This document shows, piece by piece, positions 12,220 through 54,596 of a stretch of DNA of 64,000 nucleotides. The stretch comes from Aestuariivirga sp. (GTDB lineage Bacteria > Pseudomonadota > Alphaproteobacteria > Rhizobiales > Aestuariivirgaceae): positions 1 to 64,000 of the forward strand of contig NZ_JADCDB010000027.1 in assembly GCF_020252395.1 (NCBI RefSeq), in the 5' to 3' direction. A model generated the notes under the pieces. The model was not told the origin of the DNA. It did not search any database and saw only the letters and a list, made by a program, of their open reading frames with translations. Positions within the stretch are counted from its first letter, which is position 1; every line of letters starts with the position of its first letter. The position numbers were made by a program, and so were the translations under genes.

Positions 12220-14753
12220 TACATACCTCGCATGCCGGACCGAACCGCGCGCGCGAGGCCCGCCGCAAGCTGGGTGCGGCTGGCATCGAAGGCTGCCGGG
12301 TTCGGCGTCTGGATTGTCACGTTCACCACAGCACCTTGCCCGCGGCGTGAGGGTCCGCGTTCATAGGCGCGCGCTTCATTCCGGTTCAGCACGCGTTCGC
12401 CCCTTTGCAGAATTGCGGGAACTTCATCGGGTTTGAGGAAGGCCCCATCATGAAAGCGCGGCGCGCCCAGAAACAGCGACGCCGGCACAACGCGGCCCAC
12501 ACCGCCCGCCCCCACCAGCCCGCCATCATGGAAGAGGCGCGAGAACAGGTTCATGCCCTGGCTGAAGGTCGGCAGGCTCGATCCGAACAGCAGATTCTTC
12601 AGGGGATTGAGAAGCGCCAGCTTGACCATTTCGCGGGTAAGGTCCTGCAAGGCCGAGCGGCCGGCATCGGCCCAGGACTTCCAATCGAGCTTGCCCTGGG
12701 AAAGAACCTCGCCAAAGCGATCGAGCGCTGAGCCCACCGCCGTTTCGATGGCGCGATAGGCCGCGTCCTGCGCCTGAAGTTGCTGCGTCAGGCGCTCGAT
12801 GCGGCCCGCGTTTTCGACGATCGCGCGCCCTTCCTCGCCCGCAAGGTCAATGCCCCGCCGCCGCAGATCCTGCTCGGCCCGGAGCCCCGCGAGCAGCTGA
12901 TCGCGCTGCGCGGCATCCGCACCCTGAAGTGCTAGCCTGCGGGTGAGGAGGTCAATTTCGTTGCCGTGGCCTTCGCGCAGGCGCCGTGCCGCTTCGGCGG
13001 TGGCGGCGGCCTTCCTATCAAGTGCGGACGCGGTGCCGCGCAAGGCCCTTGCCTGGGCATCTTCGGCCTTCGCCGCCGCTTCAACTGGTGGCCGATAGGT
13101 TTCGATCCGTTGCGTGATGCGCCGATAGGCGTCTTCGATCATCGCCAGATCGGCCAGCTTGCCGCGGGCCAGCGGATCATCGAGTGCTGATTTCAGGGCG
13201 GCTTGTTGCGCCTTGAGCCGTTCGAGTTCGCGGAAGCCGGGCGCGATATCGCGCGCCATTTCGCCAGCCCGGATCGAAAGCTCGTTGGCCGCAATATCTT
13301 GCGCCACCAGCTGGGCCTTGCGCTGTTGCCGGTCGAGTTCATTCTGCAACAGGCGGATGCGCTCTTCCACCTGCGGCAGCATGAGCGGCATATCGCCGTC
13401 TCTCGCATTATCCAGCAGTTGCTGGCGTTGCCAGCGCAGAAGATCGAGTTCTTCCTGCGAGCTACGGCCATCGACGGCGCGGTCGACGGCTTTGCCAATG
13501 GCGTCGAAGGCGTTGGACGCCTGCCGCGCCACATAGGCCCAGGCGCGCCCGAAGGCGTTGGTGGCTTCTTCCGCATCGGCAAGCGCGGGCACGAGAGCGT
13601 CGAGAAGCACCTTCTGCGCTTCGGTCTTGTCGTTCTGTTCAACCAGCGTGCGGATCAGTTGCCGGGTGCGGTCGTCGAGGAAGCCCAGCTTCGTGTTGAG
13701 TTGATCAGCGCCGCGCACAGGGTCTGCAAGGGCCGCCGCCAGCTGTTCGGCCCCCGCCTTCGCATCAGCCCCGAGGGTGACCGCAAAATCGCGAGCAACA
13801 GAAATTGCCCGTCCGATTTCGCCCGCCCCGATCCGCCCGGCGCGCAGCAGCGCCACTTCCATCTCGCGGGCGGCGGTGACCGAGACCCCGCCGGCCGCGG
13901 CAGCGTTGAGCGCCACCTGTTCAAGCTGGGCGGTGGTTGCGCCCGAAGCCCGGCCCACGCCGGCAAGGGCCACGGCAACCGCGCGGGTCGACGCATCGTT
14001 CGCCACCCAGGCGGCAGTGAGACCCGCCACCGCGGCGGCAACACCCGCCACTGCGGCGCCGGCGACGCCCAGGCCTGAACCCAGCGCCGCGATGGTACCG
14101 CGCAGGCCCCCGAAGGCCTGCGTCACTTGTCCGCCCTGTTGCAGCAGGATGGTCATCGGCGACATGCCGGTCGAGAGCGACGCCACCACGTCGTTGAAAG
14201 TATATTGCAGCGTAAGGAGCTGGTTGCGGGTCAGGCGGCTTGCCCCGCCCATGCCGCGGATCGCTTGCGCCGTCTGGTCATAGCGTTGCCGCGCCAGCCC
14301 TTGTGCTACCGCATGTTCGGCAGACGTGATGGCACCGCGCCCGGCAAGGGCCGCGTATTCGGAAAGTTCCTGATTGAGCCGGGCCTGAGCGGCGTCGAGG
14401 GGATCAATCGCCGCCCGAAGTGCCCGGGCGCGGGCCTCGTACCGCTCGGCGTCCCTCGCGGCCTGTTCGAAGACTTCGGCAGAGGCGCGTGCCGAACTCG
14501 CCGACTGTCGGTCGACGCCCAAAACCTGATTGAACCACCCCTGCGCGGCATCGGCCTGCGCCGCCATGCGGGCGGCTTCCGCCAGGTGCTTGAACCGGGC
14601 GATTTCGCGATCCGTCGCGGCTCCCGTCTTCTCAAGCGCCCGATCGACCTGCCCGAAGGCTTGGCCGCCCGCCTGGCCGACTTCCTCGAAGGCACGCTTG
14701 ACCTCCGCCTTGCCTTCGACGCCGAGGCGGATCGAGACATTCGTGGCGCTCAT
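12219..14753 (-). CDS. Tail tape measure protein
   Basis: Sets tail length and is ejected with the DNA. The 844 residues open with a short basic domain ('SIRLGVEGKAEVKRAFEEV'), then long Ala/Gln/Arg helices. Around residues 180-210 comes the lambda-gpH-type phrase 'YTFNDVVASLSTGMSPMTIL' followed by 'LQQGGQVTQAFGG'. A hydrophobic Ala/Gly segment ('GVAGAAVAGVAAAVAGLTA') follows, then coiled coils. The C-terminus has 'FHDGGLVGAGG' and 'VLNRNEARAYERG', typical of gpH-like proteins. Length about 2.5 kb predicts a tail of roughly 120 nm, by the usual proportionality. Confidence 0.92.
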   Translation of the reverse strand: MSATNVSIRLGVEGKAEVKRAFEEVGQAGGQAFGQVDRALEKTGAATDREIARFKHLAEAARMAAQADAAQGWFNQVLGVDRQSASSARASAEVFEQAARDAERYEARARALRAAIDPLDAAQARLNQELSEYAALAGRGAITSAEHAVAQGLARQRYDQTAQAIRGMGGASRLTRNQLLTLQYTFNDVVASLSTGMSPMTILLQQGGQVTQAFGGLRGTIAALGSGLGVAGAAVAGVAAAVAGLTAAWVANDASTRAVAVALAGVGRASGATTAQLEQVALNAAAAGGVSVTAAREMEVALLRAGRIGAGEIGRAISVARDFAVTLGADAKAGAEQLAAALADPVRGADQLNTKLGFLDDRTRQLIRTLVEQNDKTEAQKVLLDALVPALADAEEATNAFGRAWAYVARQASNAFDAIGKAVDRAVDGRSSQEELDLLRWQRQQLLDNARDGDMPLMLPQVEERIRLLQNELDRQQRKAQLVAQDIAANELSIRAGEMARDIAPGFRELERLKAQQAALKSALDDPLARGKLADLAMIEDAYRRITQRIETYRPPVEAAAKAEDAQARALRGTASALDRKAAATAEAARRLREGHGNEIDLLTRRLALQGADAAQRDQLLAGLRAEQDLRRRGIDLAGEEGRAIVENAGRIERLTQQLQAQDAAYRAIETAVGSALDRFGEVLSQGKLDWKSWADAGRSALQDLTREMVKLALLNPLKNLLFGSSLPTFSQGMNLFSRLFHDGGLVGAGGVGRVVPASLFLGAPRFHDGAFLKPDEVPAILQRGERVLNRNEARAYERGPSRRGQGAVVNVTIQTPNPAAFDASRTQLAAGLARAVRSGMRGM

Positions 14754-41154: not shown

Positions 41155-41597
41155 ATGATCCCGTGCTGGCGCGCGTCGCCGCCATCAAGACCATGCCCAC
41201 GCCCTCCCTGAGAACGATGTGGCGTGATCTCCATGGCACCGAAGCACCGCCCTACAACCGGCGCTTTCTCGAAAGCCGTCTGGCCTACCGCATCCAGGAA
41301 CTCGCCTATGGCGGCCTCAAGCCCGAGACTGTGAAGCGGCTCGAGGCCCTCGCGCGCGGCGTCGAGGACACCAATCCCAAGACCCGGCGGATCCGCACCG
41401 ACCGCAAGCCGGTGGCGGGCACGCGCCTCCTGCGCGAATTCCAGGACGTCGAGCATATCGTGACGGTGACCGTCGAGGGATACGAGTACCAGGGCCGCCC
41501 TTACAGATCGTTGTCGGCAGTCGCCCGCGCCATCACTGGCGTGAAGTGGAACGGCTGGGTGTTCTTCGGCCTGAAGAGCGCAGGGAGCGGCACATGA
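41151..41597 (+). CDS. DUF2924 protein
   Basis: The 148 residues show the DUF2924 signature: 'LRTMWRDLHGTEAPPYNRRF', 'ESRLAYRIQELAYGGL' and 'YRSLSAVARAITGVKWNGWV' ending 'FFGLK'. The C-terminal SSAVA-R-ITG-x-x-NG-x-x-FF part resembles a small DNA-binding motif found in MTase-like proteins. It always neighbours a large serine recombinase and probably assists it. Overlaps both neighbours by 4 bases. Confidence 0.88.
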   Translation: MNDPVLARVAAIKTMPTPSLRTMWRDLHGTEAPPYNRRFLESRLAYRIQELAYGGLKPETVKRLEALARGVEDTNPKTRRIRTDRKPVAGTRLLREFQDVEHIVTVTVEGYEYQGRPYRSLSAVARAITGVKWNGWVFFGLKSAGSGT

Positions 41598-42934
41598 AGC
41601 GTGCGGCAACCGGCCATCCTCCGACGACGAAGATCACGCCGAAGGTCCGGTGCGCGATCTACACGCGGAAATCCTCCGAGGAAGGGCTCGACATGGAGTT
41701 CAACAGCCTCGACGCTCAGCGCGAGGCCTGTGCCGCCTACATCCTGAGCCAGAAGCCCGAGGGCTGGGTTGCGGTCGCCGACCGCTATGACGACGGCGGG
41801 ATGTCTGGCGGCACGCTGGAACGTCCGGCGTTGAAGCGGCTCATCGCCGACATCGAGTTCGGCAAGGTCGATGTGGTCGTCGTCTACAAGATCGACCGGC
41901 TGTCGCGCTCGCTGATGGACTTCGCCAAGCTGGTCGAGGTGTTCGAGCGGCGAGGCGTCACCTTCGTCAGCGTCACGCAGTCCTTCAACACGACGACCTC
42001 GATGGGGCGGCTGACGCTGAATATCCTGCTGTCCTTCGCCCAGTTCGAGCGGGAGGTGATCGGCGAGCGCATCCGCGACAAGGTCGCGGCCTCGCGCCGC
42101 AAGGGCATGTGGATGGGCGGCTACGTGCCGCTCGGCTACCGCGTCGAGAACCGCAAGCTGCTCGTCAACGAGGAAGAAGCGGCATCCGTCCGGCTGATCT
42201 TCGAGCGGTTCGTGAAGCTCGGATCGATCAAGCTGCTGATGCGGGAACTGCAAGCGGCCAACATCCGCAGCAGACGCGGCTACATGCTCGACAAGGGCGC
42301 GCTCTACAAACTGCTCAACAATCGGGTCTATATCGGCGAGGCCGTCCACAAGGGCGAGGCCTATCCCGGCGAGCACGAGGCAATCATCAGCGCCGATCTC
42401 TGGCAGCGTACCCACGCCATCATGGGCGAAAGCCCGCGCATGCTCGCCAACCAGACCCGACTGTCGGGACCGTCCCTGCTGCGCGGCCTGATCTTCTCGC
42501 CGAATGGCGACGCCATGTCGCCGAGCCACACCCGAAAGGGTGACCGGCTCTACCGCTACTATGTCACGCAGTCGATCCTCAAGCGCGGTCCGGGAACCTG
42601 TCCAGTGGGCCGGGTTCCCGCCGCTGAGATCGAGACGGCGGTGATCAAGCAGCTTCGCGGCTTCCTGCGCGCGCCGGAACTGATCGTGCGGACATGGATA
42701 ACCGCGACCCAGCACGACGATCGCATCACCGAGGCCGAGGTTCGCGACGCCTTCGAGCGGCTCGATCCGATGTGGGACGAACTGTTCCCCGCCGAGCAGG
42801 CACGCATCGTCCAGCTTCTGGTCGAGCGTGTCGACGTGAAGGTTGATGGCATCGCGATCCGTCTCCGCACCAACGGGCTGACGAAGCTGCTGGGCGAACT
42901 CCAGACCTTCTCTGACCGAAAGGACGCGGCCTGA
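41594..42934 (+). CDS. Large serine recombinase (site-specific integrase)
   Basis: Catalyses integration or excision of a mobile element. From ATG 41594 the 446 residues include the catalytic N-terminus ('AIYTRKSSEEGLDMEFNSLD', Ser27 in the Y-x-R-x-S motif; 'YDDGGMSGGTLERPALKRLI'; 'VVVYKIDRLSRSLMDFAKLV'). The long helix motif 'FAQFEREVIGERIRDKVAAS' follows. A Recombinase domain ('RGYMLDKGALYKLLNNRVYI') and a zinc-beta-ribbon region truncated relative to large phage integrases complete it. It may have served the prophage to the left, the defence operon to the right, or both. Confidence 0.92.
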   Translation: MKRAATGHPPTTKITPKVRCAIYTRKSSEEGLDMEFNSLDAQREACAAYILSQKPEGWVAVADRYDDGGMSGGTLERPALKRLIADIEFGKVDVVVVYKIDRLSRSLMDFAKLVEVFERRGVTFVSVTQSFNTTTSMGRLTLNILLSFAQFEREVIGERIRDKVAASRRKGMWMGGYVPLGYRVENRKLLVNEEEAASVRLIFERFVKLGSIKLLMRELQAANIRSRRGYMLDKGALYKLLNNRVYIGEAVHKGEAYPGEHEAIISADLWQRTHAIMGESPRMLANQTRLSGPSLLRGLIFSPNGDAMSPSHTRKGDRLYRYYVTQSILKRGPGTCPVGRVPAAEIETAVIKQLRGFLRAPELIVRTWITATQHDDRITEAEVRDAFERLDPMWDELFPAEQARIVQLLVERVDVKVDGIAIRLRTNGLTKLLGELQTFSDRKDAA

Positions 42935-43335
42935 TGGCGAAGGGCGCTCTCTTCCACGATGCGGGCGCTCTCACCGTCACCGTGCCGATGACATTCAGGA
43001 AGCGCGGGGGACGCAAGCTGGTCATCGCGCCGAACGGTGCTGACGCATGGGCGCTTCCCCGCGCCCGCATCGACAACACCATGGTCAAGGCGCTGGCCCG
43101 CGCCCATCGCTGGAAGAAGCTACTCGATTTCGGTCGCTTCCAGACCGTCCAGGACCTTGCCGAGGCCGAGAGGATCAACCCCTCCTACATCGCCCGTGTC
43201 CTGCGCCTCACGCTGCTCGCCCCGGATATCGTCGAAGCCATTCTCGACGGGCGGCAACCGGCGAAGATGCAACTGGATGACCTTTTCGAGCCGTTCCCAG
43301 TGGAGTGGGAGCGGCAGAGAGCGGAATTCCTATAG
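42934..43335 (+). CDS. HTH protein ending the recombinase cassette
   Basis: The 133 residues follow the recombinase with a TGATG overlap. The C-terminal half has a clear HTH pattern ('RFQTVQDLAEAERINPSYIA', 'VLRLTLLAPDIVEAILDGRQ'), as in the ParB-like or resolvase-associated proteins of this cassette. Likely a directionality or regulatory partner; not tested by any visible motif. Confidence 0.75.
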   Translation: MAKGALFHDAGALTVTVPMTFRKRGGRKLVIAPNGADAWALPRARIDNTMVKALARAHRWKKLLDFGRFQTVQDLAEAERINPSYIARVLRLTLLAPDIVEAILDGRQPAKMQLDDLFEPFPVEWERQRAEFL

Positions 43336-43422: not shown

Positions 43423-43677
43423 ATGCCCGATGAAATTCTGACTCTGCCGGAAGTGGCTGTCCTGCTGAAGGTCGCGGAGAAGACCGTCTACACGATGGCT
43501 CAACGCACTGAAATTCCAGCATTTAAGGTAAGAGGGCAATGGAGGTTCATGCGGGTGGATCTCGATAGCTGGATCGAGGCGCAAAAGGCCTCTCTGAATT
43601 CCGCAAAGGCTCAGAATGAGACGCCGCCTTCCGGTACGTCGGCGATGGAACGTGGCGGGAGGCAGGATGATCACTGA
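43423..43677 (+). CDS. Excisionase-family HTH protein, first gene of defence operon
   Basis: The 84 residues form a MerR/HTH_17-type excisionase domain: 'ILTLPEVAVLLKVAEKTVYT', 'MAQRTEIPAFKVRGQWRF' and 'VDLDSWIEAQK'. A Ser/Thr/Gly-rich tail follows. Such proteins often head BREX, DISARM and restriction operons as regulators. It overlaps the SNF2 gene by 11 bases. Likely controls the operon; could alternatively be left over from an integrative element. Confidence 0.85.
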   Translation: MPDEILTLPEVAVLLKVAEKTVYTMAQRTEIPAFKVRGQWRFMRVDLDSWIEAQKASLNSAKAQNETPPSGTSAMERGGRQDDH

Positions 43678-46528
43678 CTTCCACGCCAGGTATCTGGCCC
43701 ATGAACTGACAAAACGGTGCCCGCCTGATAGTTCAGAGCGCCTCGCTGGAGCCGTGGCCGGCGCTCAAGTCGATCTCAATCCGCATCAGGTCGACGCAGC
43801 GTTGTTCGCTTTCGCATCGCCGCTATCAAAAGGCGCGTTGCTTGCCGACGAGGTCGGTCTCGGCAAAACGATCGAAGCGGGATTGGTAATCGCGCAGCGA
43901 TGGGCCGAGAGGAAGCGTCGCATCCTGGTAATTGCGCCATCGAACTTGCGCAAACAGTGGCACCAGGAACTCAGTGAGAAGTTCCTGCTTCCCGGCGTGA
44001 TACTCGAGTCGAAATCCTACAACCAATCCATTCGCGATGGCGTTCTTCAGCCGTTCGAGGTCGAAAACGCAATCGTGATCTGTTCGTATCAGTTCGCGCG
44101 TTCCAAGGCATCCGATGTGCATCGGGTTTCGTGGGATCTCGTGGTGATCGACGAGGCCCATCGGCTGAGGAACGTCTATAAGCCCTCGAATGTCATTGCC
44201 AACACACTCAAGAATGCTCTTGCTCAGAAGAACAAGCTCCTTCTGACTGCGACTCCGCTTCAGAATTCACTGCTGGAATTGTACGGCCTTGTCAGTTTCA
44301 TCGACGAGCATGCCTTTGGCGACGTGAAAAGCTTCCGCGAGCAGTTTGCGAATCCTGGCGACAAGCGGGGTTTTGAGGCACTGAAGGAGCGGCTGAAACC
44401 AATCTGCCACCGCACACTGCGGCGCCAGGTGACGGCCTACATCCCCTATACGCGCCGCCTGCCTTTGGTGGAGGAGTTTACCCCTGCGGACGGCGAAGAC
44501 CGCCTATATCAGCTCGTTTCCGACTATCTGCAGCGTGACAATTTGCAGGCGCTGCCCTCCGGGCAACGGTCGCTGATGACGCTGGTTCTCCGCAAGCTAC
44601 TGGCGTCGTCAACATTCGCGATTGCAGGCGCCTTGAACTCGATCTCGCAAAGGCTGACCGCGAAGCTCGCGGCGCATCCCGTTGCAACGCCTCTGGAGGA
44701 GGAACTCTCGGAAGAATTCGAGGCCCTCGATGCGACGGCAGATGAGTGGCCCGAGGATGCAGATGAAGAGCCGCTTTCCGACGCTGACCGCAAAGCGATC
44801 GAGGCGGAAATCGCCGATCTCGAAACATTCGCGAAGCTGGCGACTTCGATCGAGCACAACGCCAAGGGCAAGGCGCTGCTCAAGGCATTGGACGTTGCCT
44901 TCGCGAAAGCGCGCGAACTGGGCGGTGCGGAGAAGGCGATCATCTTCACCGAGTCACGTCGAACTCAAGAGTATCTCCAAAGGATTCTGTCCAGCAGCCC
45001 ATACGCTGGTGGCATTGTTTTGTTCAACGGAACGAACACCGACCCTCTGTCCCGCGAGATCTATGCGCGCTGGATCGAAAGGCACGCGGGATCCGATCGC
45101 GTCACCGGGTCGCGAACTGCGGACATGAGGTCTGCGCTGGTCGACTATTTCCGTGACGAAGGTCAGATCATGATTGCGACGGAAGCAGGTGCCGAGGGCA
45201 TCAACCTGCAATTTTGCTCGCTCGTCGTGAATTATGATCTGCCATGGAACCCGCAAAGGGTGGAGCAGCGCATCGGCCGCTGCCATCGCTACGGCCAGAA
45301 GCACGACGTGGTTGTCGTCAATTTCATCAATCGCAAGAACGAGGCGGACCAGCGGGTCTACCAGCTTCTTTCCGAGAAATTCCGGCTCTTCGAGGGCGTT
45401 TTCGGTGCCAGCGACGAAGTCTTGGGTGCCATCGAGTCAGGCGTCGATTTCGAGAAGCGGATCGCAGGTATCTATCAGGAGTGCCGCCAACCAGAACAAA
45501 TCCGGGCAGCCTTCGATCAACTGCAGCTGGAGCTCAGCCTCGAAATCGATACGGCGATGAGTCAGACGCGCCAGAAGCTGCTCGAAAAGTTCGACGACGA
45601 AGTGCGGGAGAAGCTGCGCGTGCGAGATGAGGACGCGAAGGTTCATCTCGATCGCTATGAGCAATGGTTGATGCGCCTGACCCGCCACGAGTTGGATGGT
45701 CAGGCAACGTTCCACAACAGCTCGTCCTTCACCTTGCCTGCTCGGCCGCGATGGGCGAACGGCGCGGCGATCCCGCCAGGGCTCTACGAGTTGCCACGAC
45801 GTTCTGGCGAGGCGCACACCTACCGGCTCAATCATCCCCTCGGCGAGGCCGTTGTTGCCCGCGCGAAGGCGCGCGAACTCAACCCGGCCGAGGTGCATTT
45901 CGACTATGCCAATCACGCCGGCAAAATCAGCATTCTGGAACCCTATGTCGGGAAGGCTGGCTGGCTGGTCGCATCCTTGATGACGGTCGAAGCTCTGGAT
46001 GAGGCCGAGGATCACATCCTTCTGTCGGGGATCACCGATGAAGGGCATTTGCTGACACAGGAGATCTGCGATCGCCTGATGACGATCCACGGCACACGTC
46101 GGCAAGAAGTCACGCCGGATCCCGACGCCATGAGCAGCATCGAAAAGTCCTTGGGGGAAGCCCAGACGCTGATCCGTCGTGGCGTATCGGAGCGTAACGC
46201 GCGGTTTTTTGAGGCCGAAGCCGACAAGCTCGATGGTTGGGCGGATGACCTCAAGGTCGGGCTGGAGCGCGAAATCAAGGAAATCGACAGGCTCATCAAA
46301 GAGGCGCGACGTGCGGCCACGACCGCCATGACGCTAGAAGAGAAACTTGCAGGTCAGAAGCAGATCAAGACGCTCGAGGCGGCGCGCAATCAGAAGCGTC
46401 GTTCGCTGTTCGATGCCCAAGACCAGATCGACCGACAGCGGGCGGAGTTGATCGCCCAAATCGAGTCCAAGCTCGAACAGAAGGTCGAGGTCGCGCCTCT
46501 GTTCTCGATCCGTTGGAGGCTGGAATGA
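43667..46528 (+). CDS. RapA/SNF2-like helicase with coiled-coil C-terminus
   Basis: DNA translocase or remodeller of 953 residues. ATG 43667 has GGGAGGCAGG upstream. Motifs: Walker A 'LLADEVGLGKTIEAG' (61-68), Ia 'ILVIAPSNLRKQW', II 'LVVIDEAHRLRN' (DEAH at 162), III 'LLLTATPLQNS', V 'MIATEAGAEGINLQFC', VI 'EQRIGRCHRYGQKHDV' (Q534). An acidic insertion lies between the two RecA lobes ('EEELSEEFEALDATADEWPE'). The last ~150 residues are coiled coil. In DISARM-type systems SNF2 proteins act with methyltransferases; here the partner set is different. Stop overlaps the next ATG. Confidence 0.92.
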   Translation: MITDFHARYLAHELTKRCPPDSSERLAGAVAGAQVDLNPHQVDAALFAFASPLSKGALLADEVGLGKTIEAGLVIAQRWAERKRRILVIAPSNLRKQWHQELSEKFLLPGVILESKSYNQSIRDGVLQPFEVENAIVICSYQFARSKASDVHRVSWDLVVIDEAHRLRNVYKPSNVIANTLKNALAQKNKLLLTATPLQNSLLELYGLVSFIDEHAFGDVKSFREQFANPGDKRGFEALKERLKPICHRTLRRQVTAYIPYTRRLPLVEEFTPADGEDRLYQLVSDYLQRDNLQALPSGQRSLMTLVLRKLLASSTFAIAGALNSISQRLTAKLAAHPVATPLEEELSEEFEALDATADEWPEDADEEPLSDADRKAIEAEIADLETFAKLATSIEHNAKGKALLKALDVAFAKARELGGAEKAIIFTESRRTQEYLQRILSSSPYAGGIVLFNGTNTDPLSREIYARWIERHAGSDRVTGSRTADMRSALVDYFRDEGQIMIATEAGAEGINLQFCSLVVNYDLPWNPQRVEQRIGRCHRYGQKHDVVVVNFINRKNEADQRVYQLLSEKFRLFEGVFGASDEVLGAIESGVDFEKRIAGIYQECRQPEQIRAAFDQLQLELSLEIDTAMSQTRQKLLEKFDDEVREKLRVRDEDAKVHLDRYEQWLMRLTRHELDGQATFHNSSSFTLPARPRWANGAAIPPGLYELPRRSGEAHTYRLNHPLGEAVVARAKARELNPAEVHFDYANHAGKISILEPYVGKAGWLVASLMTVEALDEAEDHILLSGITDEGHLLTQEICDRLMTIHGTRRQEVTPDPDAMSSIEKSLGEAQTLIRRGVSERNARFFEAEADKLDGWADDLKVGLEREIKEIDRLIKEARRAATTAMTLEEKLAGQKQIKTLEAARNQKRRSLFDAQDQIDRQRAELIAQIESKLEQKVEVAPLFSIRWRLE

Positions 46529-46707
46529 CAGAGGAAACGCCGTCAGTACGCCTTGCGATGCGGGTCATAGAGGAACTGATCGCCAAAGGCCTCTTGCGCG
46601 AGAGCAGTCGCAAGACGTTCTTGGCGAAACTGGCGTCCGGCAAGGTCAAAGATGAGGACTGGAAGCTGGAACTTGAACTCGCCACCCCCTCGGAACCTGC
46701 CCCATGA
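46525..46707 (+). CDS. 60-residue protein between SNF2 and SMC-like genes
   Basis: Unrecognised, but held by ATGA overlaps on both sides, which strongly suggests translation. It is helical and amphipathic: 'VRLAMRVIEELIAKGLLRES', 'RKTFLAKLASGKVKDEDWKL'. Its size and conserved position suggest an adaptor or inhibitor for one of the flanking ATPases. That is inference. Confidence 0.7.
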   Translation: MTEETPSVRLAMRVIEELIAKGLLRESSRKTFLAKLASGKVKDEDWKLELELATPSEPAP

Positions 46708-49013
46708 CCAAGGTGCGCCTGAAATCACTGACCATTTCGGCGTTCCGCGGCTCGCCCGATCCCTTCACCCTGACATTCGAAACCGACCGCCAGCTCACCA
46801 TCATCTATGGTGAGAACGGCAGCGGCAAGACAACGATCTGCGACGCTCTGGAGTTCCTGGCCAAGGGTAAGGTCGGCTCGCTCGATGACCGCGGCATGGG
46901 TGGCGGGCTGGAAAAGTTCTACCCATTCGCCGGCAAGTCTGCAGCGGATTTGGCGATCCGGCTTGAGACATCGAGTGGCGCTTGCGAAGGCCGGCTGAAC
47001 GGCAAGAATGCAGTTGTCACTCCGCCGGATGTGGTGCCACGCATTTCCATCCTACGTCAGCGGGACATCGCTCGGCTCGTGGAAGCAAAGCCCGCAGAGC
47101 GCTATGAGGCCATTCGCCGATTCATCGACATCTCCGAGTTCGAACAGTCAGAGAAGGTGCTGTCCGACCTCGTCAAGAGCCTGAAGGCCGAAGAGAACGG
47201 CGCGCAGACGGCCGAGAACCAGAGCCTCGATAGCTTGCAGGGCTTCTTCGAGGCTGCAGGTAAGCCGGCGGGCTTGAATCCCGTGTCTTGGGCAAAGGCC
47301 AGGTTGGCTGATGCGAGCGCTGACAAAAGCGCTGAGGCGGCGGCATTGGGCCAGTTGCGCGCTGCCTATGCAAGACTGGAATCTATGTCGGAGCAGGTGC
47401 GGAACCAACAACAAGCGGTCGACGATGTAGAAAGAGAACTCGCCGGGGCTGTCAAAGCCTTTGAGGACGCGGCAGCACTTGTCGGCTCGGAAGCGCAGGA
47501 CATTCTCGATCTGATGGAGGCCGGAGGCAGGTATGTCCATGCCCATCCCGATCTGACGGAATGCCCGCTGTGTAGCAGCGCGGAGAAGGTTCAAGGCTTA
47601 GCAGAGCGCATTACCGAGCAGCTGCAGCGCTCGGCGGCCCTTCGCAGCGCTCGATCGAACAGACAGCACTTTGAGGCAGCGCGCGAGAAGGCGCAGCACG
47701 CTCTACAGCAACAGGAGGTCGCGGCTGCCGACGCGGCGGCAGCTCTGCGCCAGATGGCTGCAGGGTTCAAGTGGCCGGACGGCCTCGCTGCGCCAGACAG
47801 CACCGTCCCCGCGGCGGTCGCAGATCTCGCCAGCTGGCTGAAGCATACATCGCATCTGGTCGCCTCCTGGCAGGCGACGGAGGACGCGTGGCGTGAGGAA
47901 GTGAAGTTCGTCAAGGCTTTGAGAAGCGCAGTCGAGCAGTACGAAAGCAATCTTCACCGTCGCATGACGCTTCAGGAGCTGCGCCCTCGCGCTGAGAAAG
48001 CTCTTGACGTCTGTATGCAGCAGCGGCGGTCGTTCACCGATGGCATCCTCACAGACATTGCGACCCGCGTTGGCGAAATCTACGAGAAAGTCCATCCCGG
48101 CGAGGGATTGGAGAAGATCGCACTGCCGCTTGACCCGAATAAGCGCGCCTCGATTGAACTGGAGGCGAAGTTCTCGGGTTTGGATGTTCCACCGCAAGCT
48201 TACTTCAGCCAGTCGCACTTAGATACACTGGGGCTTTGCGTTTTCCTCGCGCTTGCGACCCGCGACAAGCCGGGCGAGACCGTACTCATTCTCGACGATG
48301 TGCTGGGCAGTGTGGACGAACCGCACGTCGAGCGGGTCGTCAGCATGATTTACGAGGTGAGTGCAACTTTCCGCCACACCATCGTCACCACACACTATCG
48401 CCCTTGGCGCGAGAAGTTTCGTTGGGGTTTTCTCAAACCGGATCAGGTTTGCCAGTTTGTCGAATTGCGGCAGTGGAATCTTGGGGCCGGCATGACGCTT
48501 ACCGGCTCCACCCCCGAAATCGCGCGGCTCAGGACACTACTGACGGACCCTAACCCGGACATACAAGCCATCAGCGGTAAGGCCGGGGTGATCTTGGAAG
48601 CGCTGCTGGACTTCCTGACCCTGAAATACGCTTGTGCCGTTCCGCGACGCGCCGGCGGCTCATACACCTTGGGTGAATTACTCCCAACCGTGAATGGAAA
48701 ACTGCTCGCCGCGTTGAAGGTGGAAGCGCTCGATCCGACAGGAAGCGCTCCCGCTGCAGCTACCGAGCTCAAGCCGATCATCGATCAAATCAGCAGCATC
48801 GCCCAAACCCGCAATGTGATGGGAGCGCACTTCAATACACTATCCTTCGAGCTCTATCCGCAGGACGGCATCAATTTCGCCAAGCTGGTCGAGCAGCTTG
48901 CCGATGCACTCATTTGCCCTGACCACGGCTGGCCCAGCAAGGACAAGTCCGGCAGCTATTGGAACAATGGCGGCGACACGCGCCGCCTGCACCCGCTCAA
49001 GAAACCCACATAA
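46704..49013 (+). CDS. SMC/Rad50-like ATPase with CxxC hook
   Basis: A 769-residue ABC-type ATPase. The head is split: Walker A 'YGENGSGKTT' at 36-43 and, after coiled-coil arms, signature-like 'FSQSHLDTLGLCVFLALA' and Walker B 'VLILDDVLGSVDEPH' near residue 530. The middle of the coiled coil carries 'DLTECPLCSSAE' (Cys287, Cys290), the form of a Rad50 zinc hook. After the head comes a ~200-residue extra C-terminal domain ('HTIVTTHYRPWREKFRWGFL', '...GVILEALLDFLTLKYAC') not found in Rad50. A role in sensing or tethering foreign DNA is likely by analogy to Wadjet, Rad50 and RecN-like proteins. Confidence 0.88.
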   Translation: MTKVRLKSLTISAFRGSPDPFTLTFETDRQLTIIYGENGSGKTTICDALEFLAKGKVGSLDDRGMGGGLEKFYPFAGKSAADLAIRLETSSGACEGRLNGKNAVVTPPDVVPRISILRQRDIARLVEAKPAERYEAIRRFIDISEFEQSEKVLSDLVKSLKAEENGAQTAENQSLDSLQGFFEAAGKPAGLNPVSWAKARLADASADKSAEAAALGQLRAAYARLESMSEQVRNQQQAVDDVERELAGAVKAFEDAAALVGSEAQDILDLMEAGGRYVHAHPDLTECPLCSSAEKVQGLAERITEQLQRSAALRSARSNRQHFEAAREKAQHALQQQEVAAADAAAALRQMAAGFKWPDGLAAPDSTVPAAVADLASWLKHTSHLVASWQATEDAWREEVKFVKALRSAVEQYESNLHRRMTLQELRPRAEKALDVCMQQRRSFTDGILTDIATRVGEIYEKVHPGEGLEKIALPLDPNKRASIELEAKFSGLDVPPQAYFSQSHLDTLGLCVFLALATRDKPGETVLILDDVLGSVDEPHVERVVSMIYEVSATFRHTIVTTHYRPWREKFRWGFLKPDQVCQFVELRQWNLGAGMTLTGSTPEIARLRTLLTDPNPDIQAISGKAGVILEALLDFLTLKYACAVPRRAGGSYTLGELLPTVNGKLLAALKVEALDPTGSAPAAATELKPIIDQISSIAQTRNVMGAHFNTLSFELYPQDGINFAKLVEQLADALICPDHGWPSKDKSGSYWNNGGDTRRLHPLKKPT

Positions 49014-49021
49014 GGCCACTC

Positions 49022-50683
49022 ATGGCGAAGAACCAGAAACTCGAACTCACATGGGTCGGCAAAGAGAACAGGCCGCGGCTTGAGCCGCGCATTCTGCTGG
49101 AGGACCCGGAGAAGTCCTATCACGCGAAGCATCGCGTCAGCGACGACGACATTTTCGACAACCGGCTGATCTTCGGTGACAACCTCCTCGCGCTGAAGGC
49201 GCTGGAGCAGGAATTCGCCGGCAAGGTGAAGTGCGTGTTCATCGACCCGCCCTACAACACGGGCAGCGCATTCGAGCATTATGACGACGGGCTGGAGCAC
49301 TCGATCTGGCTTGGCTTGATGCGCGATCGGCTGGAAATCATTCGCCGCCTTTTGTCGGAGGAGGGCTCTCTTTGGATTACAATAGACGATAACGAGGCGC
49401 ACTACTTGAAGGTCTTGTGCGACGAAATTTTTGGTCGAAAGAATTTCGTTGCTAACGTCGTATGGCAAAAACGATATGCTCGGGATAACAACGCTGCAAT
49501 TGGCAGTGCGCATGACCACGTATTTGTCTATGAGAAGACATTTGATGCGTTTCGTAAAACACGAAATCGCGTTGAATTGGATTATAAGACGCGTGCCCCC
49601 TATAAAAATCCGAACAACGATCCAAAAGGTCCTTGGCAGTCTATCTCTTTTACTGGTGCTGGCTTTCGCGCAAACATGATGTATCCGATTATCGGACCGG
49701 ATGGGCGTGAGCATCGGCCACCGGAGGGACGCCATTGGGCGGCGCTTGAGCCTGAGTACCATCGACTTCGAAAGGAAGGCAGAATTTGGTTCGGTTCGGA
49801 TGGTAAGGGGGTCCCTCGAGTAATCCGATATCTTTCAGAAGTCGAGGGTCTGGTCCCATCCACATGGTGGCCTCATGAAGAAGTAGGACATAATGATGAA
49901 GCAAAGAAAGACGCCTACAATCTTCACGGCAAGGAAAACGCTTTTGACACGCCTAAACCAGAACGGCTTCTGGGACGCATAATTCATATTGCCACAGACC
50001 CCGGCGACCTCGTCCTCGACTCCTTCGCTGGCTCCGGCACGACCGGCGCGGTCGCGCACAAGATGGGCCGTCGCTGGATCATGGTGGAGCTCGGTGAGCA
50101 CTGCCATACCCACATCATCCCGCGCCTGACGAAGGTTATAGACGGCGAGGACAAGGGCGGCGTGACCGAGGTGACCGGCTGGCAGGGTGGCGGGGGGTTC
50201 CGCTATTTCAAGCTGGCGCCTTCGCTCCTCGAAAAGGATAAGTGGGGCCGTGAGGTCATCAGCAAGTCCTACAATGCCGAGATGCTGGCCGAGGCGTTGT
50301 GCAAGATCGAGGGCTTCACCTATGCCCCGAGCGATAGCGTCTACTGGCAGCACGGCACCTCGACCGAGCGCGACTTCATCTATGTGACGACGCAGACGCT
50401 GTCGCCCGAGCAACTCGACGCCCTAAGCGAAGAGGTTGGCGAGGGACGAACGCTGCTGGTGCTCTGCGCCGCCTTCCGTGGCAACCCCTCCGCCTGGCCC
50501 AATCTGACGGTGAAAAAGATCCCGAACCACATTCGCGAGCGCTGCGAATGGGGTCATGACGACTACAGCCTCAATGTCGAAAATCTCCCGAAGGCACCGC
50601 CCGCGACAAAGGCTATCGATAAGGCAACACCTCGTTCCGCCTCCCAGCCGGGCCTGTTTGATCTCGCGGGAGACGATCAATGA
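49022..50683 (+). CDS. Type III restriction-modification Mod methyltransferase
   Basis: N6-adenine methyltransferase and specificity subunit, 553 residues from ATG 49022. Motif IV 'FIDPPYNTGSAF' (D75) precedes motif I 'DSFAGSGTTGAVA' (335-339), the beta-class order of type III Mod. 'NRLIFGDNLLALKAL' and 'SLWITIDDNEAHYLK' are typical neighbours. The target-recognition region between the motifs is encoded by DNA of about 43% GC in three 60-base lines I counted (49441-49620), against 58-68% in lines either side. The gene starts 8 bases after the SMC-like stop and overlaps Res by 4. Confidence 0.93.
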   Translation: MAKNQKLELTWVGKENRPRLEPRILLEDPEKSYHAKHRVSDDDIFDNRLIFGDNLLALKALEQEFAGKVKCVFIDPPYNTGSAFEHYDDGLEHSIWLGLMRDRLEIIRRLLSEEGSLWITIDDNEAHYLKVLCDEIFGRKNFVANVVWQKRYARDNNAAIGSAHDHVFVYEKTFDAFRKTRNRVELDYKTRAPYKNPNNDPKGPWQSISFTGAGFRANMMYPIIGPDGREHRPPEGRHWAALEPEYHRLRKEGRIWFGSDGKGVPRVIRYLSEVEGLVPSTWWPHEEVGHNDEAKKDAYNLHGKENAFDTPKPERLLGRIIHIATDPGDLVLDSFAGSGTTGAVAHKMGRRWIMVELGEHCHTHIIPRLTKVIDGEDKGGVTEVTGWQGGGGFRYFKLAPSLLEKDKWGREVISKSYNAEMLAEALCKIEGFTYAPSDSVYWQHGTSTERDFIYVTTQTLSPEQLDALSEEVGEGRTLLVLCAAFRGNPSAWPNLTVKKIPNHIRERCEWGHDDYSLNVENLPKAPPATKAIDKATPRSASQPGLFDLAGDDQ

Positions 50684-53355
50684 ACCGTCACGTCAACGCC
50701 ATCGCCGGTCGTCTCAGCCTCCGCGCTCCGCAGCGGCAATCCCTCGAAATTCTCGATCGCGTCACCGAGCTGGTTCCGCCGCGAAAGGACGCCGATCTTG
50801 AAGCCGCGCTTGCTGCGCTTCGCAGCGAGTTCCCAAGCGTCACTGACTTCGAACGCGACTTTCCGAGCCTGTGCTTCGCGTTGGCGACGGGCGTCGGCAA
50901 GACCCGCCTGATGGGCGCGTTCATCGCCTATCTGCACCTGGCGCATGGCCTGAATAACTTCTTCGTGCTCGCGCCGAACCTGACGATCTACAACAAGCTG
51001 ATCGCGGACTTCACGCCCAACACGCCGAAATATGTCCTGAAGGGTATCGCGGAGTTCGCGATTTCGCCGCCCGTCATCACGACGGGCGACAATTTCGAAC
51101 GACAGATCGCGAGTGGCGGCAACCTGTTCCCCGTCACGATCAACATCTTCAATATCTCCAAGATCAACTCCGAGGTGCGCGGCGGCCGAAGCCCGCGCAT
51201 CCGCAGCTTCAAGGAGGAGATCGGAGACAGCTATTTCGACTTTCTCGCGGCCCAGAAAGACCTCGTCATGATCATGGACGAATCCCACCGCTACCGCGCG
51301 ACGGCGGGCGTGCGCGCCATCAACGAATTGAAGCCGGTGATGGGCCTGGAGCTGACCGCCACCCCATTCGTGGAGACGACGCGCGGCCCGACGCCGTTCC
51401 AGAATGTGATCTTCGACTATCCGCTCGGCCGCGCCATGGCCGACGGCTTCGTGAAAGAACCTGCCGTCGTTACCCGCGAGAACTTCGTCGCGGCCGGCAA
51501 GTCGCCCGAGCAGTTGCAGCAGATCAAGCTGGAAGACGGCGTGCGCCTGCACGAAAGCGTCAAGGTCGAATTGGAAACCTATGCGCGCCAGGTCGGCGAT
51601 CGAATCGTCAAACCGTTCATGCTGGTGATCGCACGCGACACGACCCAGGCTGCTGAACTGATGACGCTGGTGAAGTCCGCCGCCTTCTTCGAGGGGCGCT
51701 ATGCGGACAAGGTCATCCAGGTCGATTCCAGCGTGAAGGAAGAGGAGACGATCGAAAGGTTGCTCAAGGTCGAAAGCCCGGATGAGCCGACCGAGATCGT
51801 CATCCACGTCAACATGCTGAAAGAGGGTTGGGACGTCACCAACCTTTACACGATCGTGCCGTTGCGCGCCGCCAATGCGCGGACGCTGATCGAGCAGTCG
51901 ATAGGGCGTGGCCTGCGGCTTCCCTATGGCAGGCGGACAGGGGTCACAGCCGTCGACCGCCTGAACATCGTGGCGCATGACCGCTTCCAGGAAATCGTTG
52001 ACGAAGCCCGCAAGCCGGACTCGGCCATTCGCCTCCAGCAGGTCATCCTCACCGAAGGACAGTTGCAGCAGAAGACGGTTACGGTCGAGTCCCGCCCGCA
52101 GCTTGCCGCCAAGCTTGGACTGCGCTCCGACACACCGGCGAATGGAATGTCGGGCTTCGAGGAAGCGCAGGCTGAATTCACGCACGAGGAGCAGCAGGTT
52201 GTTCGGATCGCCTATGACGTGATCCGCAAGATGGAGACCGAGCCGTCGCGCCTGCCCAGCGTCGCGCATCTGCAGAAGCCGGAGGTTCAGGCGGCAGTCC
52301 TCCGGGAGGTCCAAAGCCAGTATCGGCCTGCCCAGCTGGAGTTGGAGGGGATTGCCAAGCAGCCCGATCTCACAGCCATCGTCGCCAAGACCGTCGACCT
52401 TGTCGTCCAGCAGACGATCGACATTCCGCGTATCCTGGTCACGCCGAAGGGCGAGGTGAGGTCGGGCTTCCATCACTTCACGCTCGATCTGTCGCGCATG
52501 CGCTACGAAGTGCCGAACGAAACGCTATGGGCTGCTCACCTCAGGACCGGACAGGTCGATCGGATCGGCCTCGGCGCCGGCAATATCGATGAACAGCGGC
52601 TGGAGGACTACATCGTCAGCGGCCTCATCGACTTTGATGACGTGGCCTACGACGAGCACGCCGATCTGCTCTACGACCTCGCGTCACAGGTGGCCAACCA
52701 TCTGTTGGCGACGCACGCGGACGACGGCGTTCGCAAGATCCTGCGCCTCCACCAGAAGGAAATCGCCCGCTTCGTGCATGCGCAGATGCAGACGCACTTC
52801 TGGCAGGACACGGCGGTCGAATACGAGGTCGTCGTCACACGGGGCTTCACTGAACTACGAAAGAGCGCGTACACGGCGGCAGCCGGCGAGGCACCTCTCG
52901 ATTTCCGCCAGTCCCCCTCCGACAAGGCGAATATGGCGCGTTACCTGTTCGGCGGGTTTCAGAAGTGCCTCTATCCAACACAAAAGTTCCAGTCAGACGC
53001 CGAGCGAAAGCTCGCAGTCATTCTCGATCGCGAAGCCCAGAAATGGTTCAAGCCCGCGCGTGGGCAGTTTCAGTTGTTCTACCGCAACGGCACGGATCTG
53101 CAGGAGTACCAGCCGGACTTCGTCGCAGAGACGGATGACAGCATCCTGATGCTTGAGCCCAAGGCCTCAAACCAGATGACCGAGCCAGAGGTGGTGGCGA
53201 AGCGCGATTCAGCGGTCGAATGGTGCCGGCACGCGAGCAGTCATTCGGCAAGTTATGGCGGCAAACCGTGGCGCTACGCCTTGATCCCACATGACGCGAT
53301 CGCGGAAAACATGACACTGGCCGGTCTGCTGCGCCAATTTGGTACGACCAAATGA
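50680..53355 (+). CDS. Type III restriction Res subunit (SF2 helicase-nuclease)
   Basis: ATP-driven restriction subunit of 891 residues. Walker A 'FALATGVGKTRLMG' (69-75), motif II 'MIMDESHRYR' (DESH 200-203, in place of DEAH), motif III 'GLELTATPF', V 'HVNMLKEGWDVTN' and VI 'EQSIGRGLRLPYG'. The C-terminal PD-(D/E)XK nuclease shows 'EYQPDFVAE' (D813) and 'LMLEPKAS' (E826, K828). Length is near the 900-1000 usual for Res. All motifs look intact. Coupled to Mod and Mrr by ATGA overlaps. Confidence 0.93.
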   Translation: MNRHVNAIAGRLSLRAPQRQSLEILDRVTELVPPRKDADLEAALAALRSEFPSVTDFERDFPSLCFALATGVGKTRLMGAFIAYLHLAHGLNNFFVLAPNLTIYNKLIADFTPNTPKYVLKGIAEFAISPPVITTGDNFERQIASGGNLFPVTINIFNISKINSEVRGGRSPRIRSFKEEIGDSYFDFLAAQKDLVMIMDESHRYRATAGVRAINELKPVMGLELTATPFVETTRGPTPFQNVIFDYPLGRAMADGFVKEPAVVTRENFVAAGKSPEQLQQIKLEDGVRLHESVKVELETYARQVGDRIVKPFMLVIARDTTQAAELMTLVKSAAFFEGRYADKVIQVDSSVKEEETIERLLKVESPDEPTEIVIHVNMLKEGWDVTNLYTIVPLRAANARTLIEQSIGRGLRLPYGRRTGVTAVDRLNIVAHDRFQEIVDEARKPDSAIRLQQVILTEGQLQQKTVTVESRPQLAAKLGLRSDTPANGMSGFEEAQAEFTHEEQQVVRIAYDVIRKMETEPSRLPSVAHLQKPEVQAAVLREVQSQYRPAQLELEGIAKQPDLTAIVAKTVDLVVQQTIDIPRILVTPKGEVRSGFHHFTLDLSRMRYEVPNETLWAAHLRTGQVDRIGLGAGNIDEQRLEDYIVSGLIDFDDVAYDEHADLLYDLASQVANHLLATHADDGVRKILRLHQKEIARFVHAQMQTHFWQDTAVEYEVVVTRGFTELRKSAYTAAAGEAPLDFRQSPSDKANMARYLFGGFQKCLYPTQKFQSDAERKLAVILDREAQKWFKPARGQFQLFYRNGTDLQEYQPDFVAETDDSILMLEPKASNQMTEPEVVAKRDSAVEWCRHASSHSASYGGKPWRYALIPHDAIAENMTLAGLLRQFGTTK

Positions 53356-54266
53356 GCATCCCCGACTATCAGTCCCTGATGATGCCGGTTCTCCAGATCG
53401 CCGCCAAGGGCGAAACCTCGGTTCCGCTTGCCGAGGCAGAGATTGCGGCCATGTTTGCTCTGTCGCAGGAGGAGCGCGAACAGATGCTCCCGAGCGGCAA
53501 GCAGCGCGTCCTTCACAACCGAATCCATTGGGCAAAGTTCTATCTGACCAAGGCGGGATATCTGGAGGCCCCCAGGCGCGGACGCTTCATGATCACGCCC
53601 GCTGGGACGGCCCTACTGGCGAAGCCACCAGCGAAGCTCGACACCCAATACCTGTTGTCCGTGCCGGTCTTCCGGGATTTCTATCGTGCCGATCAGCCAG
53701 ATGAGACCGTCGGTCAAACAGCGCAGAGCACCACGCCAACGGCCACGCCCGAAGAAGTGATCGAGGCGGCGTTCAATGCCACACAGGCAGCACTCCGAAC
53801 GGAACTCTTGGACCGGATCCTCCAGAATGGGCCAGGGTTCTTCGAAGGTTTGATCGTCGAGCTCCTCGTCGCAATGGGTTATGGCGGCTCGCATCGCAAT
53901 GCAGCGGCGCAACTGGGTCGAACCGGTGATGGCGGGGTGGATGGCGTCATCAACGAAGACGTTCTGGGCCTCGACCGTGTTTACGTCCAAGCGAAGCGCT
54001 ACAGTCCCGGCACGTCCGTCGGACGGCCTGACGTCCAAGCATTCACCGGCAGTCTTGTGGGGCTGGGCGCGACCAAGGGCGTGTTCGTGACAACATCGAC
54101 GTTCTCGCCTCAGGCCATCGAGTTTGCGGCTCGAATTCCGCAACGCGTGATCCTCATCGATGGGAAGAGGCTCACCGAACTGATGATCGAGCACGGTGTC
54201 GGCGTTCGGTCGAGCCGTATGCTGGAGTTCAAGCGTATCGACGAGGACTTTTTTGCCGAAGAATGA
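53352..54266 (+). CDS. Mrr-type restriction endonuclease
   Basis: The 304 residues contain an Mrr N-terminal winged helix ('MMPVLQIAAKGETSVPLAEA', 'RVLHNRIHWAKFYLTKAGYL') and a C-terminal Mrr nuclease domain. The active site is visible as 'GRTGDGGVDGVI' (D197) and 'VYVQAKRYSPG' (Q213, K215), with 'FVTTSTFSPQAIEFA' after it. Mrr enzymes of E. coli cut modified DNA. Here the gene is fused by overlap to a modification operon, so its specificity must be compatible with self DNA. Last gene of the operon. Confidence 0.92.
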   Translation: MSIPDYQSLMMPVLQIAAKGETSVPLAEAEIAAMFALSQEEREQMLPSGKQRVLHNRIHWAKFYLTKAGYLEAPRRGRFMITPAGTALLAKPPAKLDTQYLLSVPVFRDFYRADQPDETVGQTAQSTTPTATPEEVIEAAFNATQAALRTELLDRILQNGPGFFEGLIVELLVAMGYGGSHRNAAAQLGRTGDGGVDGVINEDVLGLDRVYVQAKRYSPGTSVGRPDVQAFTGSLVGLGATKGVFVTTSTFSPQAIEFAARIPQRVILIDGKRLTELMIEHGVGVRSSRMLEFKRIDEDFFAEE

Positions 54267-54506
54267 TCGGCAATGCTCGCTCGAACTCCGAGGGCAGCGC
54301 AGAAATAAAAACACATTTATTTCAATGCGTTGAGTTCCGTACCGCGGCGGCGTCAGTCCTCGGGTACGGAGAATATCGGGGTAAATGGAGAGAGATGACA
54401 CTTCAGCACGACCGCCGCAGTACACAGCTCGGCATGGGAAGGCCCCGGAATTGTTTGTGGATTTCAGCAGACGCCTGAATGCGGGAGACGCTTCATTTGG
54501 AGGCAA

Positions 54507-54596
54507 TGGCGGAAGAGGAGGGATTCGAACCCTCGATACGCTTTCACGTATGCACGCGTTCCAGGCGTGTGCCTTAAACCACTCGGCCACCCTTCC
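54507..54596 (-). tRNA. tRNA-Ser (GGA)
   Basis: The minus strand reads GGAAGGGTGGCCGAGTGG at its 5' end, has an anticodon loop CTGGAAC (anticodon GGA), a long class II variable arm, a T-loop GGTTCGAATCC and an encoded 3' CCA. The acceptor pairs GGAAGGG with CTCTTCC, including one G-T. Total 90 nt fits tRNA-Ser. Its 3' end faces the defence island, a usual orientation for an integration target. Confidence 0.95.

Follow-up and report, generated by a model that had tools for sequence, protein, structure and literature searches.

A probable SNF2-assisted type III restriction–modification platform with an exchangeable gene slot at the edge of a prophage in Aestuariivirga sp.

Seven plus-strand genes at 43423-54266 of the window, the whole 64,000-nucleotide stretch of Aestuariivirga sp. 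contig NZ_JADCDB010000027.1 that was analysed, form an operon. They encode a helix-turn-helix (HTH) protein, an SNF2 helicase, a protein of 60 amino acids (60-aa protein), a Rad50-like ATPase, the type III restriction–modification (R-M) subunits Mod and Res, and an Mrr nuclease. The operon is, with moderate probability, an SNF2-assisted type III R-M platform that carries exchangeable accessory defence genes and sits beside the integrase of a prophage, or of an island derived from one, in tRNA-Ser. Its backbone is SNF2(DrmD-like)-Mod-Res, sometimes preceded by a small HTH gene. The interval between SNF2 and Mod is an exchangeable slot, in which relatives hold dissimilar genes, many of abortive-infection type.

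The SNF2-Mod-Res backbone and its slot

Relatives of the operon, from many phyla by their record titles, were gathered by tblastn on plasmids and by searching genome contigs with an alignment of SNF2. The 148 loci in all come from genomes, plasmids and viral contigs, two of the 44 viral loci (L321 and L322, short matches) being omitted, and the counts rely on hidden Markov models (HMMs) built from these very loci. SNF2 scores above 900 bits in 129 of the 148 loci, with Mod downstream in 100 of those 129. This SNF2 is present in 19 of 398 Pseudomonadota genomes, the own genome among them. In 12 of the 19, this Mod follows it on the same strand, either directly or after slot genes, and in three more (G382, G397 and G233) the position is taken by Mod and Res of other classes. 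Viewed from Mod, SNF2 of this class went undetected beside it in 20 of 32 Mod genomes, several of these cases being contig edges. The combination is also found in IMG/VR, where SNF2 exceeds 300 bits in 42 of the 44 retrieved contigs, 26 of them with Mod and Res downstream. The HTH gene was rejected as a universal part of the backbone, as an HTH-like open reading frame precedes SNF2 in 16 of 92 loci by our own HMM and in six of ten plasmid loci by annotation.

Four loci with near-identical SNF2 were dropped from the 100 SNF2-Mod loci. Of the remaining 96, 42 have an SNF2-Mod interval shorter than 250 base pairs (bp), 4 have one of 250-599 bp, and 50 have one of 600 bp or more. The 50 long slots form 20 groups without detectable similarity between them (tblastn linkage, in which a multi-gene slot can link groups). 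AIPR-like genes occupy 11 of the 96 slots, and the pair formed by the 60-aa protein and the ATPase occupies 7.

The ten annotated plasmid loci show the same pattern, with methyltransferase and DEAD/DEAH helicase (Res) genes after SNF2 and differing genes in between. For instance, the slot contains AIPR, HTH and VapC genes on a Deinococcus plasmid, an insertion sequence and an Abi gene on a Salmonella plasmid, and AAA genes with hypotheticals on Hymenobacter and Planctomycetes plasmids. Additional genes stand between mod and res in Aeromonas (AAA and DUF4276) and Rhizobium (DUF262), the Roseomonas plasmid has a gap of about 1 kb without an annotated gene, and those of Cupriavidus, Klebsiella and Ketogulonicigenium have no intervening genes.

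The cargo was surveyed in 100 proteins of at least 100 amino acids, of which 53 derive from the SNF2-Mod slot, 18 from the Mod-Res interval and 29 from the region just 3' of Res. Among the Pfam matches listed (best 25 of 78 families) are AAA_21 (9 proteins), AIPR (7), SLFN_AlbA_2 (7), DUF4276 (4), GmrSD_N (3), SIR2_2 (3), RhuM (2) and Abi_2 (2); mad3, AbiU, AriA, NsnB, HEC-01 and others are among the PADLOC matches listed (best 25 of 329). A tandem protein kinase (L064), a SIR2 protein (L087) and a Fic protein above its cut-off (L068) are each found in a single slot.

These counts bear on an initial annotation of the same DNA. Its proposal of an extended type III R-M operon is supported by the 12 SNF2 genomes with Mod downstream, while its suggestion that the seven genes are one system holds in part: SNF2-Mod-Res recurs, but the 60-aa+ATPase pair fills few slots and also occurs without SNF2, and Mrr was not found elsewhere with this SNF2 class. 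It had also asked whether Mod-Res occur mostly without the partner genes. This is the case for the pair and Mrr, which are absent from most loci, and for the Mod genomes lacking a detected SNF2, but not for the recurrent SNF2-Mod-Res combination.

Exchange is observed between close relatives. The Methylobacterium fujisawaense locus L024 matches the window by blastn with 92% DNA identity at 43662-46516, 88% at 49027-49441 and 93% at 50003-53315, with no match between these blocks, and the protein identities are 93% for SNF2, 75% for Mod and 96% for Res. The first gap is the slot, which holds the 60-aa+ATPase pair in the window and a 600-aa AIPR protein in L024. The second is a variable block of Mod (49442..50002, plus strand; residues 141-327), which is probably the target-recognition domain. 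The L279 locus breaks at 46516/49021 and 49437/50003, near the L024 break points, and L029 breaks in Mod at nearly the same places. Because the L024 homology begins at 43662, the HTH gene is not common to the two loci; at the other end, the match stops 40 bp before the Res stop codon, and Mrr is unmatched in L024.

Two further observations concern the cargo. Insertion of cassettes via the 3' end of SNF2 was considered and rejected, as a partial SNF2 3' end occurs in 2 of 55 slots (L029 and L286) and equally in 2 of 55 in a shifted control; the L029 remnant (14336-14452) lies between two cargo cassettes, and L286 gives a similar hint, at the control level. Moreover, L062, L065, L069, L299 and L313 have genes of about 380 and 920 amino acids after SNF2-Mod-Res, probably an SbcCD-like pair (Metallophos and SbcD_C in Pfam); the SNF2 of L062 and L299 are identical.

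Genes of the operon and the module in its slot

The seven genes overlap by 11, 4 and 4 bp, are then separated by a gap of 8 bp, and overlap again by 4 and 4 bp. Their co-transcription is suggested by these overlaps; a scan for a sigma-70-type consensus found 0 promoter-like sites against a mean of 3.4 in shuffles, and such a scan tells little for this organism. The overlapping layout described in the initial annotation was confirmed at every junction, its identification of the HTH, SNF2, Mod, Res and Mrr genes agrees with Pfam, PADLOC and NCBIfam profile searches, and the catalytic motifs that it regarded as intact were all located.

All genes of the operon are on the plus strand. The HTH protein (43423..43677) is a small, excisionase-type, MAD1-like protein (PF12728, HTH_17, 54.5 bits) and the probable regulator of the operon. 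The DrmD-like SNF2 helicase/translocase of the backbone (43667..46528) has SNF2 and Helicase_C matches in Pfam and DrmD (PDLC02619, 693.5 bits) as its best PADLOC profile, and its motifs are DEVGLGKT at 61, DEAH at 162 and QRIGRCHR at 534. Mod (49022..50683), the type III DNA methyltransferase of the backbone, matches PF01555 (N6_N4_Mtase, 156.8 bits) and PDLC03636 (MTase_III, 723.7 bits) and has DPPY at 75 and FAGSG at 335. Res (50680..53355), the type III restriction subunit, completes the backbone and combines a superfamily 2 (SF2) helicase with a C-terminal PD-(D/E)XK motif (PF04851, ResIII; PDLC03648, REase_III, 657.2 bits; GVGKT at 71, DESH at 200 and PDFVAETDDSILMLEPK at 812). Judged by the sequences of Mod and Res, the operon is a predicted type III R-M system. 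The 3' accessory gene (53352..54266) encodes an Mrr-type (type IV) restriction endonuclease with Mrr_N (PF14338) and Mrr_cat (PF04471) domains, a PDLC03657 match of 334.3 bits and a D..QxK-type motif, DGGVDGVINEDVLGLDRVYVQAK, at 193.

The cargo of the slot begins with the 60-aa protein (46525..46707), the partner of the ATPase, which has 0 matches in Pfam, PADLOC or NCBIfam at E 0.001. The second cargo gene (46704..49013) encodes the ATPase, with AAA_23 and SMC_N in Pfam, Rad50 and SMC chains as PDB sequence matches, LmuB (70.4 bits) as best PADLOC profile, and the motifs GENGSGKT at 36, CPLC at 287 and LDD at 530. CxxC is present in 11 of 12 aligned ATPases and absent from that of L012. The description of this protein as an SMC/Rad50-like ATPase with a CxxC hook thus stands as regards the Rad50/SMC-like profile and the CxxC; the SMC hinge was unmatched in Pfam, and a conserved C-terminal domain had been overlooked.

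The 60-aa+ATPase pair is a two-gene module. It is found in the window and in L029, L030, L031, L058, L096, L097, L100, L104 (the same place as L207), L106 and L287, and loci from Nitrospira, Bacteroidetes, Deltaproteobacteria and Omnitrophota, as well as one IMG/VR contig, have the order SNF2-60aa-ATPase-Mod. It is also carried by three Bacteroidota plasmids (L008-L010), where no SNF2 was seen in the annotated 12-kb flanks. The more distant ATPases of L011, L013 and L016 have, by annotation, a short gene directly 5' of them, in which no similarity to the 60-aa protein was detected. The window ATPase is matched at E <1e-30 in 3 of the 398 Pseudomonadota genomes, the own genome included. Its similarity is uncoupled from that of the backbone, identity to the window being 67% for SNF2 against 31% for the ATPase in L029, and 64% against 41% in L207. 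When viral contigs were searched with the ATPase, 23 of 25 loci matched residues 1-78 only, two reached residues 267 and 351, and 0 were full length; one full viral-contig pair, L287, was found through SNF2. In a separate observation, L016 (21196-23918) of Rhizobium sp. NLR16a holds a distant AAA ATPase and an upstream 74-aa gene, convergent to an SNF2-Mod-DUF262-Res operon.

The C-terminal domain of the ATPase (48435..49010, plus strand), which contains RNVMGAH, is a candidate HEPN-type ribonuclease (RNase). In 13 aligned domains, E632, R703, N704, G707 and H709 (E55, R126, N127, G130 and H132 of the fragment) and six other positions are invariant. Since E, R, N, G and H are kept in 13 of 13 domains at a mean column identity of 43%, the domain looks catalytic. 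The HEPN-type pattern consists of R, a polar residue, a few residues and H, which RN..G[AC]H fits. The motif, together with a weak profile match, suggests an RNase of HEPN type.

In the other loci examined, where contig ends hide some 3' sides, this Mrr was not found with the SNF2 class of the window. The Mrr family is present at E 1e-30 in 28 of the 398 genomes, and the own genome has a second, partial Mrr-like match at G000:C42:48868-49368. Its three closest relatives are L239 (71-76% identical, in pieces and broken), beside which no type III neighbour was detected, L237 (64%) and L238 (60%). The latter two follow a type III Mod-Res of a different class, directly or two genes later, in operons (L329/L237 and L330/L238) that open with a 1090-1092-aa helicase and a 231-252-aa gene. 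These helicases score weakly with our own SNF2 HMM (143 and 145 bits) and reach 420 and 434 bits with the PADLOC HKD+Snf2 profile C3a139. The order of Snf2 helicase, Mod, Res and Mrr has thus evolved or persisted in a second backbone as well, an argument that Mrr is a genuine partner of Snf2-led type III operons. Among 25 other Mrr loci (24 in other genomes, one in the own genome), type III Mod-Res adjoin in these two and were undetected in 23. A 2011 paper, by its title, reportedly describes mutual exclusion of Mrr and type III Mod. Such exclusion is not borne out here, as both occur in the own genome, G381 and G464; without the own genome, the count is two against about two expected by chance (28 Mrr and 32 Mod genomes of 398, Mod being counted for this class only, at E 1e-70).

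Proposed function, rival explanations and known systems

In the platform proposed here, Mod would methylate host DNA and, together with Res, cut unmodified incoming DNA, as their families suggest. The DrmD-like SNF2 would probably move along or clear incoming DNA for Mod-Res, and the HTH protein would probably set expression. The slot module would consist of the 60-aa protein and a Rad50-like ATPase with a probable HEPN-type RNase domain. By analogy with PrrC and RloC, this ATPase would normally be inactive, with the 60-aa protein or the R-M complex perhaps restraining it; when a phage inhibits the R-M enzyme or breaks DNA, the RNase would be released and translation would stop. Mrr would serve as a second-line modification-dependent nuclease.

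More tentatively, SNF2-Mod-Res could be a general effector-swapping immune chassis, in which the R-M core senses, an effector in the slot fires when the core is blocked, and prophages help the spread. The effectors would be AIPR, Schlafen-type, SIR2, kinase, Fic or PARIS-like proteins or, in the window, a new Rad50-like RNase of HEPN type under the control of a 60-aa protein. It belongs to the same tentative reading that the Mod block, and with it specificity, and the slot effector are exchanged independently among close relatives. PrrC in EcoprrI is the well-studied example of a suicide RNase standing guard over an R-M system. Should the slot commonly house guards of this type, loci such as the window and the Methylobacterium locus would supply natural pairs with matching backbones, in which control of an embedded effector by the R-M complex can be examined directly, and the SNF2-mod interval would be a simple place to look for new defence genes.

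A different account treats the seven genes as one integrated machine: Mrr would be its effector, and SNF2 together with the SMC-like ATPase would detect or process DNA on behalf of Mod-Res. It would suit a single overlapping operon with intact motifs, the recurrence of the SNF2-60aa-ATPase-Mod order in distant loci, and the position of Mrr after Mod-Res in two HKD-Snf2-led operons. We nevertheless regard it as quite improbable, since L024, so similar in SNF2 and Res, has an AIPR gene in its slot and no Mrr, a second locus with all seven genes was not found among those examined, and the pair occurs without SNF2. The pair alone on plasmids, the 23 other Mrr loci without a detected type III neighbour and the many cargo families that match known or candidate defence-gene models would all be compatible with defence-island stacking, in which the slot is a convenient insertion point and the cargo, independent of R-M, has the promoter alone in common with it. 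However, the repeated arrival of cargo at one position, joined to its neighbours by short or overlapping junctions, points to selection for expression together with Mod-Res and makes simple stacking unlikely. As for the pair itself, it could be a Rad50/Lamassu-like sensor of DNA breaks or DNA loops without RNase activity, with the RN..G[AC]H domain as a binding module. The LmuB profile, the Rad50 and SMC chains in the PDB and the lack of a HEPN family in the Pfam and PDB searches favour such a sensor, but five residues conserved throughout the 13 domains look catalytic, and no LmuA is among the PADLOC matches listed for the operon proteins; we consider this alternative somewhat doubtful.

Several points weigh against the platform with an embedded RNase. 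No Pfam family of the HEPN kind and no convincing PDB sequence was found for the C-terminal domain. In HMM-HMM comparison, Abi_C (P 0.022, probability 2.1%; six of seven rows, L135 with an internal stop omitted) and DUF4145 (P 0.048, 1.1%; seven of eight rows, L145 omitted) match weakly, four SNF2 control blocks giving P 0.32-0.6, and at such probabilities the result is a hint only. The Abi_C alignment spans RN..G and stops before the histidine, whereas that of DUF4145 aligns N and H and not R. The arginine is missing in the distant L013, L002 and L016, and the whole domain in L011. With respect to the slot, the genome-contig loci are the 80 best among at least 569, and the 42 intervals below 250 bp imply that a slot gene is dispensable for the role of the backbone; the cargo could be passengers with their own triggers, not partners. 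In favour of exchange, slot contents are dissimilar in 16 and similar in 14 of the locus pairs whose SNF2 proteins are 70-99% identical and whose slots are both occupied; as the pairs share members, this describes the loci and does not test exchange.

Among known systems, type III R-M has the same Mod and Res families, order and motifs (DPPY and FxGxG; an SF2 helicase with C-terminal PD-(D/E)XK after mod), and the operon differs from it by SNF2 and by the HTH gene and cargo slot upstream of mod. RloC is a Rad50-like protein with a zinc hook, and the window ATPase shares its character of an ABC ATPase with a CxxC hook. Full-length membership of AAA_13, presumably the PrrC/RloC Pfam family, was rejected for this ATPase, which matches over the P-loop only, at 26.8 bits against a cut-off of 36. 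PrrC is embedded in the type IC locus EcoprrI, an experimental precedent for an embedded RNase, and RloC responds to DNA breaks (PMC12707154); the window likewise has an ATPase with a candidate RNase domain inside an R-M locus, and differs by its type III host with SNF2 and by the 60-aa partner.

The SNF2 of the window is nearest to the DrmD profiles of DISARM, yet its scores stay below the DrmD equivalog cut-offs (698 against 950 bits for NF038318, 247 against 610 for NF038317). DrmA, DrmB or DrmC is the best profile for none of the seven proteins, although SNF2 cross-matches DrmA at 126 bits; drmA, drmB and drmC are not among the operon genes, in line with the earlier remark that DISARM has other partners. 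The methylation-associated defence system (MADS) comprises eight genes. The HTH protein comes near its MAD1 (NF047737, 79.4 bits against a cut-off of 80), and MAD3-like ATPases and a MAD6-like kinase are cargo in relatives of the window. Of the other mad genes, only a mad3 similarity of the ATPase (59 bits) is among the matches listed, and MAD1 is the only NCBIfam MADS match. With Hma and the DUF499-centred BREX-related systems, as defined in PMC12839542, the operon shares SNF2 and a methylase, and HEC-01 models match cargo of relatives. The HmaC DUF499 ATPase was not found in the Pfam results, the PADLOC list of Res (8 of 8) or the best 25 of 49 of the ATPase, and SNF2 reaches 176 bits with the HmaA profile against 693.5 with DrmD. 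Lamassu was likewise set aside, as LmuB covers the ATPase in part (70 bits), with no LmuA among the PADLOC matches listed, which for SNF2, the ATPase and Mod are the best 25. Judged by these comparisons, the operon belongs to none of DISARM, MADS, Hma and Lamassu.

In Vibrio cholerae, TgvAB is a modification-dependent (type IV) pair embedded, like the Mrr of the window, in an R-M operon, and PMC11411939 describes it as antiphage; therefore, such embedded genes can be defences in their own right. Its host is type I and its family GmrSD, whereas the window has Mrr. The HKD-Snf2 operons (C3a139) resemble the window in that a Snf2-type helicase, Mod, Res and this Mrr follow one another on one strand, but have another helicase and another Mod/Res class and are without the 60-aa+ATPase pair. 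The parts are not new, since a 2008 paper already noted that R-M operons contain SNF2 proteins and AIPR (PMC2292703). No description of an SNF2-Mod-Res backbone with an exchange slot came up in the literature searched, bioRxiv and most subscription journals lying outside its scope. In line with the initial annotation, no named system with exactly this set of genes was met in the searches made. A preprint on embedded defence, which is said to be the source of the PADLOC HEC models, may overlap with the slot finding.

Prophage and tRNA-Ser setting

The prophage lies 5' of the operon, on the minus strand at 2200-41000 of the window, with tail, tape measure, terminase large subunit, ParB/DNA methyltransferase and primase/helicase families. 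Its serine recombinase/integrase (41546..42934, plus strand; phrog_95 integrase, 362.5 bits) is followed by a gene of a family annotated as recombinase (42934..43335, plus strand; phrog_14161, 149.5 bits), and the operon comes next. On the other side, ARAGORN places a tRNA-Ser(GGA) gene at 54507..54596 on the minus strand, and the inserted DNA ends on the right at the 3' end of this gene. Comparison with 12 congeneric loci, out of 14 fetched besides the own, shows in all 12 a homology to the window that begins at 54505-54507 and not further left. Because this homology begins at the 3' end of the tRNA gene, the operon lies within DNA inserted at tRNA-Ser. A second copy of the tRNA 3' end was not found in the window or the genome, the congeneric relatives did not place the left border, and the contig starts in a repeat present several times in the own genome. 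We infer that the prophage and the operon arrived in one insertion.

The tRNA-Ser(GGA) gene may be an integration hotspot: the 12 congeneric left flanks (L245-L256) are without a long match to the window, apart from one 55-bp match in L245, and also to each other, except for L253 and L256. Among the IMG/VR contigs with related operons, the serine recombinase lies elsewhere in L284, L293 and L300, and others show none in the stretch examined, while in L279, L301, L308 and L320 it begins roughly 2 kb 5' of SNF2, matching the arrangement in the window.

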